From Candidatus Nitrospira allomarina (lineage in GTDB: Bacteria > Nitrospirota > Nitrospiria > Nitrospirales > UBA8639): a stretch of 64,000 bases of DNA. The stretch lies in assembly GCF_032050975.1 (NCBI RefSeq), contig NZ_CP116967.1, positions 1,733,001-1,797,000 on the forward strand. The letters are read 5' to 3'. Each line of letters opens with the position of its first letter. Position 1 is the stretch's first letter. Shown here one piece after another: positions 1-61,350 of the stretch. The position numbers and the translations under genes were made by a program. Below the pieces are notes generated by a model, which ran no database searches, was not told the origin of the DNA, and worked only from the letters and a program-made list of their open reading frames with translations.

Positions 1-413
1 ATAATCGGAATGACCCTCAGTTGAATAAGGGTATTGAGGGTATGGCGGGCATTCAGGAATCGTCGACGGTCGGATAAATCCTGGTGAGTTAAGAGGACTT
101 GGGCAATTTTATTTTTCGTTTCTTCAAACGCCATCTCATAGGCTCGCATGAGCCGGCTTTGTCCGACGGCAGCGGCGGCTTGCTGAAGAGGTAATTCAGC
201 GGGATAGGAAAAAATGGCGAGGTGTGAGATGCCCGCAACGATGGCTCCGGAAGAAACCACGACAATTTGTCGATCCTGAGCCTGGAGGGTGCCCAATTCC
301 TGGGCTAAACGGTTGATGCGGTCGAGACGAAGACCGCCTTGCGAGGAAGCCACCAGGCTGCTTCCTACTTTGACGACGATCCTCTTGCACGCGGCTAGCA
401 CTTGCTCGCGCAT
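1..413 (-). CDS. proB: Glutamate 5-kinase, N-terminal part (runs off window)
   Basis: Reverse-strand reading from the ATG at 413 stays open to the window edge, giving about 137 residues. The start contains the amino-acid-kinase phosphate-binding stretch RIVVKVGSSLV, followed by IVVVSSGAIVAG, which matches the ProB family motif. ProB phosphorylates glutamate as the first step of proline synthesis in the cytoplasm. The ATG lies inside the last codons of obgE (19 bp overlap), so the two are probably translationally coupled. The order rplU-rpmA-obgE-proB is common in bacteria and supports the call. The C-terminal half, including any PUA domain, lies outside the window. Confidence 0.9.
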   Translation of the reverse strand, partial: MREQVLAACKRIVVKVGSSLVASSQGGLRLDRINRLAQELGTLQAQDRQIVVVSSGAIVAGISHLAIFSYPAELPLQQAAAAVGQSRLMRAYEMAFEETKNKIAQVLLTHQDLSDRRRFLNARHTLNTLIQLRVIPI

Positions 414-1414
414 GAGGTCTTTGCTTCCAGAACGGCTTTCCCTAAATAGGTCACGAGTGATGGAAGGCCTTCCCTGGTCACGGCCGAAATGGGAAAGAAC
501 GGAAAGTGGTGTGCGCTGCAATACTCCCGAAGGGCTTCCAAGTGCTGGCCGTTTCCCTGAGAATCAATTTTTGTAGCTACGATGGCAAATGGCCGTTCAA
601 GGAGTTCCGGGTCAAAGGCCTGGAGTTCCCTTTGTAGGGTTTCAACGATCTCGACGGGATCTTCTGCAATCCATTCGGTAATGTCGACCAGATATAACAA
701 AAAAGCGGTTCGCTGGATATGTCGCAGAAATTTAATTCCTAACCCTTTCCCCTCATGAGCGCCTTCGATCAATCCTGGAATATCGGCTACAACAAACGAA
801 GAATGTTCCATCCATTCCACCACTCCCAAATGAGGCCGCAGGGTGGTGAAGGGATAACTCGCAATTTCCGGGTGTGCAGAAGAAATCGCTGAAATCAATG
901 TTGATTTACCTGCGTTAGGAAAGCCCACTAAGCCGACATCGGCTAACAATTTCAATTCCAGATTCACCCATCGCTCTTCGCCGGGAGTCCCTGGCTCAAA
1001 TTGACGTGGCGCTCGATTCGTTGACGTGGCAAAACGTGCATTCCCCTTTCCGCCTTTACCTCCTTTGGCCACGATGGCGGTCTGTCCTTCCGCAATAAGG
1101 TCGGCGATGATTTCACCGTCTTCGGTTTTCACGAGAGTTCCGACAGGAAGGGGAATCACGATATCGGAGCCATTGGCTCCATGGCAATTGGTCTTGAGGC
1201 CTCTGACGCCGGAAGTAGCCTCATAATGTTTTTGATATCGCAGGTCGAGCAATGTTGAGACTCTGTTGGAGGCCACAAAGACCACGTCTCCTCCATCCCC
1301 GCCGTCGCCACCGTTGGGACCGCCAAACTCGGCAAATTTTTCCCGTCGAAAGCTGCAGTGTCCGGTTCCACCGTCACCAGCTTTGATAAATATTCGTGCT
1401 TGATCGATAAACAT
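395..1414 (-). CDS. obgE: Obg-family GTPase ObgE/CgtA
   Basis: A 339-residue protein with the Gly-rich Obg fold at residues 1-158 (glycine clusters near 31-43 and 118-124), then the GTPase domain. G1 is GFPNAGKS at 164-171 and G3 is DIPGLIEGAHEGKG. The G4 position reads ATKID rather than NKID, a conservative variant. G5 resembles SAVTREG. Obg GTPases bind the 50S ribosomal subunit and link ribosome assembly to growth and stress state. The gene follows rpmA by 81 bp and its 3' end overlaps proB. Length is typical of the short Obg forms that lack a long C-terminal extension. Confidence 0.97.
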   Translation of the reverse strand: MFIDQARIFIKAGDGGTGHCSFRREKFAEFGGPNGGDGGDGGDVVFVASNRVSTLLDLRYQKHYEATSGVRGLKTNCHGANGSDIVIPLPVGTLVKTEDGEIIADLIAEGQTAIVAKGGKGGKGNARFATSTNRAPRQFEPGTPGEERWVNLELKLLADVGLVGFPNAGKSTLISAISSAHPEIASYPFTTLRPHLGVVEWMEHSSFVVADIPGLIEGAHEGKGLGIKFLRHIQRTAFLLYLVDITEWIAEDPVEIVETLQRELQAFDPELLERPFAIVATKIDSQGNGQHLEALREYCSAHHFPFFPISAVTREGLPSLVTYLGKAVLEAKTSCASKC

Positions 1415-1495
1415 ACTGATCCTTAAAAAATCCTACCGGACTTACCAGGGAGAAATGAAGGCGATGAATTGATAAAGCAAGAAATGGGAAGGGAG

Positions 1496-1750
1496 CTAGA
1501 CGGGGGGATAGACGCTCACCTTCCGGCGGGCGATTCCTCCTTCAAACTTAACGATCCCGTCTACTTTGGCAAAGAGGGTGTAGTCGCTTCCAAGTCCGAC
1601 ATTTGTCCCAGGAAAGAATTTTGTTCCGCGTTGACGAACGATGATGCTTCCGCCGCTCACCTTTTCGCCGGCATAGGCTTTGACGCCTAAATATTGTGGA
1701 TTGCTATCGCGACCGTTGCGGGATGATCCGCCACCTTTTTTATGCGCCAT
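1496..1750 (-). CDS. rpmA: 50S ribosomal protein L27
   Basis: An 84-residue basic protein opening with [16 protein letters not shown], the conserved L27 N-terminus that reaches toward the peptidyl-transferase centre. It continues with the family pattern [12 protein letters not shown] and ends in a basic segment typical of L27. There is no cleavable Firmicute-type N-terminal extension. It lies 35 bp downstream of rplU and upstream of obgE, the standard arrangement. A purine-rich ribosome-binding site (GGAGGTTTGACTC before the ATG) fixes the start at 1750. Confidence 0.97.
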
Positions 1751-1785
1751 GAGTCAAACCTCCAAAGTATTCTAAAGATCAAGGA

Positions 1786-2103
1786 TTATGCCGATGCCAC
1801 GATTTCAGTGATTCGAACTTCAGTGAATCCCTGACGATGGCCCTTGGTCCGTCGATAGTTTTTTCGTCGTTTCTTTTTGAAAATGGTAATGGACCGGGTT
1901 CGCGCATGCCGGATGATCTCTCCTTTGACTACTGCATCTGTAATCATGGGAGAGCCGACAATAGGCGCTTGGTCCGTTTGGACAAATCCCACTGAGTCGA
2001 ATTGAATGATGGATCCGACATCGCCTTCAAGTGACTCGACTTGTAGAATACCGTTCGGTTCCGCCCGGTATTGTTTTCCACCTGTTTCGATAATTGCATA
2101 CAT
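1786..2103 (-). CDS. rplU: 50S ribosomal protein L21
   Basis: A 105-residue protein starting MYAIIETGGKQYR, the L21 signature, with a basic C-terminal region containing KKKRRKNYRRTKGHRQ that binds 23S rRNA. It is the first gene of the rplU-rpmA-obgE-proB unit. A good Shine-Dalgarno (AAGGAGC) lies just upstream of the ATG at 2103. The intergenic region towards ilvE (2104-2257) must hold the promoters for both divergent genes. A TTGACA-like hexamer is visible on the minus strand there, but it has no convincing -10 partner. Confidence 0.97.
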   Translation of the reverse strand: MYAIIETGGKQYRAEPNGILQVESLEGDVGSIIQFDSVGFVQTDQAPIVGSPMITDAVVKGEIIRHARTRSITIFKKKRRKNYRRTKGHRQGFTEVRITEIVASA

Positions 2104-2257
2104 GTTTTTAGCTCCTTAACAAACACGCATTTTGCCAGTATGTTTACATTTATGTCAAGATTTTAGTATATCATCACGCGTTCTTGATGCTTAGCAAAAA
2201 ACTCTTCGCTCACATGCCTTGTCTATTTCAGCTACTGTCAATCGGAGAAGTATTCCT

Positions 2258-3172
2258 ATGGTGACTGGTTCAAAAAAAATTTGGATGGATGGAGCCCTCG
2301 TCGATTGGGATGAGGCCTCGGTTCATGTTCTTACCCATTCTCTCCATTATGGTCTGGCGGCCTTTGAGGGGATCCGTTGTTATGAGGGCAAGGCCGGATC
2401 AAACATTTTTCGATTACAAGAGCATGTGGACCGGCTCTTTGAGTCTGCCCATATTACGATGATGCCCATGCCTTTTACCAAAAAAGAGGTGTCGGACGCC
2501 ATTGTTGAGACGGTTCGGGTCAATCAATTGGCCTCCTGTTACATCCGCCCGATCGCCTATGTGGGGTACGGCGCAATGGGGGTGTACCCTGGTGACAACC
2601 CGATTCGTCTGGCTATTGCGGCTTGGCCATGGGGATCGTATCTAGGGGAAGATGCCTTGGTGCAAGGCATCAGGGCAAAAATTTCATCCTTTACCCGGCA
2701 TCATGTGAATGTATCTATGACCCGGGCAAAAATCTCGGGATATTACGTCAATTCGATTTTAGCCAAATGGGAGGCGAAGAAGTCAGGATATGCCGAATGT
2801 ATTCTCCTTGATCCTGATGGATATGTCTCTGAGGGAACAGGAGAAAACGTGTTTATTGTGAAAAAGGGAGTTCTAAAAACGACTCCCTTGACCTCGATCC
2901 TGGACGGGATTACCCGGAATTCGATCCTTGAAATGGCGAGAGCCAAAAACATCCCGGTGATTGAGGAGCGGTTTACCCGCGATGCGATGTATGTGGCAGA
3001 TGAAATATTTCTTACCGGAACCGCTGCCGAAGTGACACCGGTTCGCGAATTGGATGATCGAAAAATCGGCGAAGGTAGGCCAGGGGCTCTCACAAAATGC
3101 CTGCAGGATAATTTCTTTAGAATTGTGCGTGGCGAAGAACCTGCGTATGCCAATTGGCTGACTCCAATTTAG
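2258..3172 (+). CDS. ilvE: Branched-chain amino acid aminotransferase
   Basis: A 304-residue fold-type IV PLP aminotransferase. Early motifs are IWMDGALVDWDEASVHV and HYGLAAFEGIRCY. The catalytic Lys is in TRAKISGYYVNSILAKWEA, and GTGENVFIV matches the phosphate-binding region. It catalyses the last step of Leu, Ile and Val synthesis, transferring an amino group from glutamate to the 2-keto acids. An upstream TTG at 2219 is in frame, but the ATG at 2258 has a GGAGAAG ribosome-binding site 8 bp upstream and gives the usual family length, so I chose it. The gene stands alone, divergent from rplU and convergent with secG. Confidence 0.95.
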   Translation: MVTGSKKIWMDGALVDWDEASVHVLTHSLHYGLAAFEGIRCYEGKAGSNIFRLQEHVDRLFESAHITMMPMPFTKKEVSDAIVETVRVNQLASCYIRPIAYVGYGAMGVYPGDNPIRLAIAAWPWGSYLGEDALVQGIRAKISSFTRHHVNVSMTRAKISGYYVNSILAKWEAKKSGYAECILLDPDGYVSEGTGENVFIVKKGVLKTTPLTSILDGITRNSILEMARAKNIPVIEERFTRDAMYVADEIFLTGTAAEVTPVRELDDRKIGEGRPGALTKCLQDNFFRIVRGEEPAYANWLTPI

Positions 3173-29833: not shown

Positions 29834-32051
29834 ATGCCAAGTCATTCCTCGCTCTCTGAGATTCCCATTCAGTTTGCCAAAGGGGTGGGGCCTCGGAGAG
29901 CCCGCCTGCTGGAAAAATTAGACGTGCAAACATTAGAGGATGCCTTCTGGTTTTTACCCTGGCGATATGAAAACCGATTGGAAGTGTTGCCCATCGGGAA
30001 CCTTCTTCCAGGCATGAAGGCCACAATTAAAGGCAGAGTGCAGAAAGTGTGGGTGAAAACCACGTATCGAAGGCGTCTGGTCGTGGTCACAGTGACGGTG
30101 AGGGATGAGACGGGTCTTATCGAATGCGTGTTTTTTAACCAGCCCTATTTGGAGAAAACCTTTGCACCTGGCGTATCTCTGTTATTGACCGGTCCGGTCT
30201 TGTCCAATTCTTCTGCTAGTTCCCCGATGACCATGCGCGGGCCGGAATATGAATTGTTGGATGAGGACGAATTGCCGGACATGTGTGGGGGCCGGATTGT
30301 TCCCGTCTATCATGAGACAAATGGGTTGAGCTCCAAGCAGATTCGACGAATTATTCGATCAATTTTTGACCATTATGCCCATCAGTTACAAGAGATGTTG
30401 CCCTTAACGATGCGAACACAACTCGGAGTGCCAACCCTTTCAGAGGCATTACCCGTCTTACACTTTCCCAATCAGGAGCGTTCGGTGGAGGCATTGAATG
30501 CCTACGCGACACCAGAACACCAACGCCTGGCATTTGAAGAATTGTTTCTCCTGCAATTGGCACTCGCCATGCGGCGTCGAGGGCAGACTCAGGACCTTGA
30601 AGGTATCCCATTCGCTGTTCGCAACCCGTTGGTTAAACAGCTGAAAACCGTGTTGCCCTTTTCGCTTACTTCGGCGCAAGAACGTGTGATCAAGGAAATT
30701 AGCCATGACATGGGACGGCCAACCAGTATGAACCGCTTGCTGCAAGGAGATGTCGGGTGTGGGAAGACCGTGGTGGCTCTTCATGCCATCGTGATGGCCT
30801 GTGGGTCCGGATATCAAGCTGCCCTGATGGCCCCAACAGAAGTGTTGAGCGAACAGCATTATCTGTCATTGCTTCCCCTATTTGATGCTCTGGGTGTACG
30901 GAGCATTTTGTTGAAGGGCGGGCAGACAGGACGCGAGCGCGGGAAGATACTTGCCGGAATGCAGTCAGGTCAGGTGCAGGTGGTGGTGGGTACACACGCC
31001 TTGTTACAGCCGGATGTGCACTTTGCCAAGCTTGGGTTGGTAATTGTTGGATGAGCAACACAAATTCGGTGTGCTGCAGCGCGCCCAGCTTCGTGGGAAA
31101 GCGCCATGGCATCCCGATGTGTTGGTGATGACCGCCACGCCTATCCCCAGGACCCTGGCGATGACGCTGTATGGGGATTTGGATGTGTCGGTGATTGATC
31201 AGTTTCCTCCAGGGAAAAAACCCGTAAAGACGATGTTGTTCCCCACCGGTCAACGGAAAGACGCGCATCGTTTGATGCGAAAAGAATTGGAAGCGGGGCG
31301 GCAGGCTTATGTGGTGTATCCGCTCGTTGAACCATCAGAAAAAATTGATTTACAGGCAGCCATTGAGGCTGCCGAGCAATTACGGGAAGAATGTGCTCCA
31401 TTTCGAATCGGTTTGCTGCATGGCCGATTGCCATCCCGCGAAAAACAAGTGATTATGGCCAAGTTTAAAAAGAAAGAGATTGATGTGTTGGTGGCCACCA
31501 CTGTTGTCGAGGTCGGGTTGGATGTTCACAATGCCACGGTCATGCTCATTGAACATGCGGAACGGTTTGGATTGGCGCAATTGCATCAATTGCGGGGCCG
31601 GGTAGGGCGAGGTCTTTCTCAAGGCTATTGTATGCTGATTCATGGCCTTGGGAAAATTCCTCCCTATTCCCCTCAAATACCCTTGAAGCTTGAGTCCAGT
31701 CGAATGTCGCTCGATGAGATCGGCAGGCGTTCCCAGGGGGAAGCGTTTTCCCCTTCTACAGCGAGGCGGCGCCTCGGGGTGTTTGCACAATGTGAAGACG
31801 GCTTTGCACTGGCGGAAGAAGATTTGAAAATTCGTGGGCCTGGGCATGTCTTAGGGGTCAAGCAATGGGGGGAAATGGATTTTCGTGTGGCGGATTTGGC
31901 TCGAGATACCGTGTTGTTAATAAAAGCAAAACAAAAGGCAGGAGAAATATTGGAATGTGATCCACTGTTGACACTGCCTGATCATCGCATCCTTAAGGAA
32001 ACATTGTTTCGAAAATGGGGTGAAAAGTTCGCGCTGGGTTCCATTGGATAA
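29834..32051 (+). CDS. recG: ATP-dependent DNA helicase RecG, interrupted by a single-base frameshift
   Basis: Two abutting frames together encode a complete RecG of about 738 residues. The first (29834-31054) carries the wedge/OB domain (PIQFAKGVGPRRARLLEKL) and motif I (LLQGDVGCGKTVVA). The second (from 31050) starts exactly at the DEQH motif II and carries ATPIPRTLAM, the VEVGLDVHNATVM region and QLRGRVGRG. An extra G at 31049/31050 turns GTTGATGAG into GTTGGATGAG and creates an early TGA. Removing it restores VIVDEQHKFGV. RecG remodels stalled forks. About 40 residues (GKIPPYSPQIPLKL onward) are inserted after motif VI. A sequencing error or a true recent mutation fit equally. Confidence 0.85.
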
Positions 32052-34488: not shown

Positions 34489-35320
34489 ATGGGTGACATC
34501 CATAGTTTGCAAAGTCAGGTGGCTCTGGTTGCGGGAGGTGGAGTGGGCATTGGACGTGCCATTGCCCGGGCGTTAGTGGGGCAACAAGTGGGAGTCGCTA
34601 TTTGTGGAAGACGTGTGGAAGAATTGGAGCGCACAGCAGGCGATCTCATTCAGGCTGGCGGAGAAGTGCTTTCGGTACCATGCGATGTGACCCAACGGGA
34701 CGATGTTGAGCGTACCATAAAGAGAGTGATCCAGAAGTTGACAGGCTGGACATTCTTGTTAATAACGCAGGAGCATCAGGTCAAACGCCGATCCATGATC
34801 CGGATGATTCCAAATGGCAGAATATTCTTCAAGTGAATTTAACAGGCAGCCACTTGGTTTCGAAACTTGCTATTCCACATATGCTCCCCCACCACTATGG
34901 ACGAGTCGTGAATATCTCCTCCGTCTTGGGACGATTTGGCGTGGCAGGGTATTTGGCCTATTGTACAGCCAAACATGGCATTTTAGGGTTTACCAAAGCT
35001 CTGGCACTGGAAGTCGCCTCTCAGGGCATAACGGTGAATGCCATTTGCCCAACGTGGGTGGATACCGCCATGGCCAGGCAGGGTATCGAAGAAACGGCTG
35101 CCAGCCTTGGGATTTCACCAGGTGAATTTCGTGAAATCGCGATTAGTACGATTCCGAAAAAAGGATGGCGGAAACCGAGTAGGTGGCCAGTGTCGTCCTG
35201 TACCTCTGCTCACATGCGGCTAGTGCAATAACCGGTCAAGCCTTAAATGTTTGTGGTGGAACTACCGCAGGGTGTGATTTTCCTAGTCTTGGCAGTGAAG
35301 GAAAGCTGATAACTCATTGA
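34489..35320 (+). pseudogene. Short-chain dehydrogenase/reductase (FabG-like), broken by three lesions
   Basis: Joining three frames rebuilds a full SDR of about 275 residues: the nucleotide loop VAGGGVGIGRAIARAL, then LDILVNNAG, then NISSVLGRFGVAGYLAYCTAKHG with the YxxxK catalytic pair, and finally VASVVLYLCSHAASAITGQ. One base is missing near 34738-34740. A second is missing from an A-run at 35157-35162, where seven A would restore PKKRMAETE. A TAG stop stands at 35180-35182 where a Glu or similar codon is expected. Three independent lesions make error unlikely. SDRs reduce carbonyls with NAD(P)H; the native substrate is unknown. Confidence 0.85.
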
Positions 35321-61034: not shown

Positions 61035-61350
61035 GAGCTTAGATTAGGGATTGGTGTTGCCAGGCGTCAGGATGGTAGTGTCTTCGCTGATCTGATAGCA
61101 AGCGAGGATTTTTTCGAGAATGGGTTCGGCAATTTTATCCATGTGTGACAGGAGGCTTTTCTTAGCAACTTTTGATTGGTACACTAAATCATCATTCCTA
61201 TTGCTGGATCTCTCATCTCTAGCTTCTGACTTGACAGTTTTGAGGGATCACGGATAGACTGAAATTGTGAATTTTTCTCGAATTTATTTGTGGATAATAG
61301 ACGAATGTGTGAGCGAAAAGTTTCGCGAATAATCGGCTAGAGGAGGTCCA
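61035..61350. other. Intergenic region between divergent nadK and clpC
   Basis: 316 bp that must hold both promoters. On the minus strand a 46-codon frame (GTG near 61181 to TAA at 61044) reads plausibly but has no good ribosome-binding site. No CtsR- or CIRCE-type operator is visible upstream of clpC. Confidence 0.5.

Follow-up and report, generated by a model that had tools for sequence, protein, structure and literature searches.

A frame break in recG and a 500-nt lattice of single-base insertions in a one-contig genome

In the one-contig genome G000 (4,553,057 bases, completeness rating 100%), recG is broken by a single extra base, which raises the question of whether RecG has just been lost, is produced by a shift of frame during translation, or is intact in the cell and misrepresented in the deposited sequence. 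An earlier note on this DNA had left these three options side by side. The locus lies within the window, i.e. the whole stretch of 64,000 nucleotides analysed here (positions 1,733,001-1,797,000 of the contig), and its reading depends on how frame breaks are distributed along the contig. The frameshift is almost certainly an assembly artefact rather than biology.

The recG locus and its relatives

The first open frame of recG ends at an in-frame TGA, and the gene resumes in the +1 frame (Table 1). The lesion falls at a Val/Asp junction, just ahead of the Asp of the DEQH motif, with the TGA one codon later. The RecG domains are complete yet split, with PF17191, PF01336 and PF00270 in frame 1 and PF00271 and PF19833 in frame 2, and the RecG profile TIGR00643 is matched consecutively, at positions 2-363 by the first half and 363-563 (best stretch) by the second; scored alone, the halves reach 302 and 369 bits, each below the cut-off of 659.4 bits. 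Removal of one base from the 2218 nt leaves 738 codons and a stop, in agreement with the 738-residue RecG proposed earlier. The sequence at the lesion is ATTGTTGGATGAG in the window and GTGGATGAG in the nearest relatives. One locus (L004 and L024, same contig), whose left flank is identical to that of the window, shows GTAATTGTGGATGAG where the window has GTAATTGTTGGATGAG, so that the surplus base is best read from this alignment as a T adjoining the GG at 31049-31050. Thus, the earlier claim of an extra base breaking recG at DEQH holds for the frame break but not for the base, which had been named as a G; the restored sequence GTTGATGAG is likewise not that of the relatives, although V-D-E-Q-H follows from both readings.

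Table 1. Features of the recG locus (positions in the window).
Feature	Position	Strand	Evidence and remarks
recG first open frame, 406 aa (ORF reading; ATG at 29834, TGA at 31052-31054); wedge domain, OB fold and N-terminal part of the DEAD helicase domain	29834..31054	+	Pfam PF17191, PF01336, PF00270; RecG equivalog profiles
Surplus base (best reading), TT versus a single T in the nearest relatives; contig position 1,764,048	31047..31048	+	Phase 48 mod 500; residual from the line of the 500-nt lattice, -1.5 nt
recG second open frame, 335 aa in the ORF list, with homology beginning at GAT 31050; Helicase_C and RecG domain 3	31044..32051	+	Ends at TAA (32051); Pfam and profile matches

The remainder of the gene is clean. 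Against G010, a one-contig relative whose DNA is about 94% identical across the ORFs compared, the second half aligned over 999 nt with 0 gaps, and the first half showed 9 gap positions, the G010 match being 9 nt (three codons) longer. Against a further genome, G014, the second half contained one +1/-1 pair that lies 9 columns apart and cancels itself. No other net frame break was found relative to G010 and G014, which bears out the earlier statement that recG carries no further lesion. Differences from G010 comprise 55 synonymous and 16 nonsynonymous changes among 402 codons in the first half and 40 and 16, respectively, among 333 codons in the second, and change was mostly synonymous in all ten comparisons (two halves against five relatives, G010 and four others).

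A match to the first half of recG (E <= 0.001) was present in 77 of 78 related genomes, in some of them as a weaker, Mfd-like match only, and the base-level reading covers the fetched loci among these 77 matching genomes. Altogether 47 loci were read for the motif, and it was missing from five: G000's own locus (L001), L015-L017 and L043, the last four ending before the site. These loci include 17 from named records with a related recG (assemblies labelled Nitrospira, Nitrospirales, Nitrospirota and similar); as they partly repeat genomes of the set of relatives, the count was restricted to that set. Of the 29 related loci fetched from other genomes, one (L043) stops before the site, and all 28 that span it carry V/I-D-E-Q-H in an open frame. 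The comparison with close relatives called for earlier therefore gave an unbroken motif throughout. Among copies covering the whole query, the six nearest (86-96% identity, one truncated where its contig ends) are open over 712-784 aa, versus 408 in G000.

Frame breaks along the contig

The only other match to recG in G000 is mfd, and this gene is broken as well. Its open frame at the match has 536 aa, versus about 1,150-1,260 in most Mfd-like matches elsewhere, and this first suggested that the problem lay with the genome rather than the gene. The mfd frames match TIGR00580 consecutively, at 1-453 and 455-905 of 907 positions, each alone below the cut-off, and are separated by a +1 at contig position 1,044,025 (near 1830 of L002).

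Frame breaks were then counted by aligning G010 ORFs with three 400-kb blocks of G000 (765 ORFs, 719,910 nt). ORFs were trimmed by 90 nt at the start and 60 nt at the end, replacing a cruder, untrimmed pass that was richer in differences near ORF starts, and were dropped if they were shorter than 120 aa, had less than 82% identity to the target or less than 80% of the trimmed ORF aligned, or, where at least 10 changes were present, had fewer than half of them at third codon positions. G000 showed 24 net frame breaks relative to G010, namely 20 of +1, 3 of +2 and 1 of -1. When G000 ORFs served as donors instead (761 ORFs, 710,283 nt), this reverse comparison gave 21 net differences, of which 10 are the same G000 events viewed from the other side and only 2 are +1 in G010. 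With G014 as donor (164 ORFs), 7 net breaks were found in G000, and four of the five in-phase G000 sites of the first block, recG included, were recovered at identical positions; the comparison with G014 did not return the fifth, at 1,910,055. As a control, G010 and G014 differed by 0 net breaks in 163 ORFs in one direction and by 1 in 154 ORFs in the other.

Most +1 breaks of G000 share a phase. They lie at multiples of 500 in contig coordinates plus a slowly rising offset, which is about 0 where the contig begins and increases by about 30 nt per Mb. Four of the five sites in the first 400 kb have offsets of -1 to 8. The offsets are 25-35 from 1.04 to 1.40 Mb, apart from 1,333,048 (at 48) and 1,233,987 (off the lattice), and 43-55 from 1.63 to 1.91 Mb, with 1,959,652 again off. 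Sixteen of the 20 coding +1 breaks, among them those of recG and mfd, are at most 10 nt from the lattice line, versus 0.84 expected; among the other four, 1,333,048 misses narrowly (+11 nt) and 204,100, 1,233,987 and 1,959,652 clearly. This line was fitted on 17 sites selected as in phase, and a split test is therefore fairer: when only in-phase sites beyond 1 Mb were used for the fit, the line came within 5 nt of four of the five +1 sites in the first 400 kb, and its offset where the contig begins was near 0. The Rayleigh z at period 500 was 16.6 of a possible 20, the highest among integer periods from 20 to 3000, versus a maximum of 13.3 across 300 random draws. In G010 coordinates, the 21 breaks of the reverse comparison gave no period of 500 (z = 0.48), and their best integer period, 2037 (z = 10.6), lies inside the null range. 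The errors thus recur at a fixed period of 500, as at joints of consensus windows, and this period is absent from the comparison genome.

When intergenic sequence was included, the signal was diluted and persisted for +1 indels alone: 32 of 384 +1 indels fell within 8 nt of the line, versus 13.1 expected and 18 and 17 in the next best separate bins, and only 6 of 318 -1 indels did so (10.8 expected). For the 98 isolated +1 indels of two blocks, again with intergenic ones, the periodicity was weak (z = 2.6 at 500) because ordinary indels dominate that set; the clear signal came from coding frame breaks. Substitutions were not enriched at lattice points, suggesting that the joints are marked by extra bases only.

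Probable polishing-window joints and rival explanations

Very probably, RecG is intact in the living cell and the surplus base arose at the joint of two polishing windows during assembly, a method suggested by the period itself. The draft would have been polished by a tool such as Racon or one of its re-implementations, in 500-nt windows that do not overlap; at a small fraction of joints, one base would have been retained by both adjoining windows, each extra base would displace all later joints by one and so produce the drift of the offset, and the recG and mfd sites would have happened to coincide with such joints. The slope implies about 30 extra bases per Mb, compared with 22 per Mb of coding sequence by direct count (16 in 0.72 Mb). 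According to the available text of the metaMDBG paper, Racon-type polishing, which metaMDBG re-implements, cuts contigs into non-overlapping 500-nt windows with a consensus for each (PMC11392814), and VeChat likewise uses 500-bp windows (PMC9636371, available text). The spacing of the G000 insertions equals this window size, and extra bases at window joints are therefore the best explanation of the lattice; an extra joint base is, however, not described in the consulted parts of these accounts. Nor was such an artefact found in the literature on polishing errors, as far as titles and abstract openings of part of the matching papers go. A paper on marine Nitrospirales describes genomes that measure 4 to 4.8 Mbp and were obtained from Illumina and Nanopore data, two being closed, and the words polish, racon and medaka are absent from its main text as available (PMC10579370). 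Like long-read indel errors in general, which in the accessible part of a published account turn intact genes into false pseudogenes (PMC12007338), the G000 insertions introduce frameshifts; unlike them, they follow a 500-nt lattice, are +1 in most cases and occur beyond long homopolymers too. Among the options raised earlier, an assembly or sequencing error is thus strongly supported, with the lattice of single-base insertions as its likely mechanism.

An ordinary random sequencing error, independent of window joints, has next to no probability as the source of the recG break. Errors that add a T beside a T are common, and the lattice misses 4 of the 20 +1 breaks, but the recG site is only 1.5 nt from the line. 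A plain homopolymer error was rejected, since the site is merely TT and the breaks track position.

A real single-base insertion by which the strain very recently lost RecG, perhaps together with Mfd, is very unlikely. The clean remainder of recG is what a very young lesion would leave, mfd is broken as well, and a second recG copy that might compensate for the broken one was sought in G000 and rejected, mfd being the sole other match. However, the site is unbroken in every relative that spans it, and the real-loss reading requires both lesions to fall by chance on a lattice common to 16 of 20 +1 breaks; by position alone, a real mutation falls within 8 nt of the lattice in about 1 of 30 cases. 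The position of the break on the lattice, together with mainly synonymous change in both halves, disfavours the recent loss that had been considered earlier. A combined claim, in which the insertion is real, the lattice position is a coincidence and both RecG and Mfd have only just disappeared from this nitrite oxidiser, is most improbable; if true, the double loss would concern fork rescue and transcription-coupled repair. The mfd split is probably the same artefact as that of recG. The window also offers a gene with a different behaviour, an SDR-family dehydrogenase (34489-35231) that is split over frames. Where its frame departs from that of G010, the differences do not fall on the lattice; G010 has itself changed there, and the G014 match is only 70% identical. 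A further polishing-window artefact was rejected for this gene on account of the off-lattice differences and G010's own changes, and from its sequence it looks like a real decaying pseudogene of the lineage.

Translational recoding, in which a +1 shift at the site yields full-length RecG, is exceedingly improbable. The arrangement, with an in-frame TGA one codon past the extra T, is reminiscent of prfB. However, programmed sites are usually conserved, and the shifted site occurs in none of the 28 spanning relatives, so that programmed frameshifting was rejected and the low-level frameshifting entertained earlier is disfavoured. In addition, a slip at the GGA-TGA stop would, as the sequence reads, give V-G-E-Q-H and lose the motif Asp.

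Implications and further observations

A one-contig genome rated 100% complete can thus hold false frameshifts in housekeeping genes, and a pseudogene list drawn from the deposited contig would falsely report a loss of DNA repair. Extrapolated from 1.2 Mb, and provided that the drift of about 30 nt per Mb reflects the number of extra bases, their total for the complete contig would be roughly 136. A shared phase of frame breaks along a contig provides a read-free test that separates artefacts from real decay.

Two further sites were noted. At 61044 of the window, another single-base insertion relative to G010 lies close to the lattice, 6 nt from its line. At contig position 1,052,024, a +2 frame break of G000 repeats AG near the lattice phase (24 mod 500), suggesting that the artefact may sometimes duplicate two bases.
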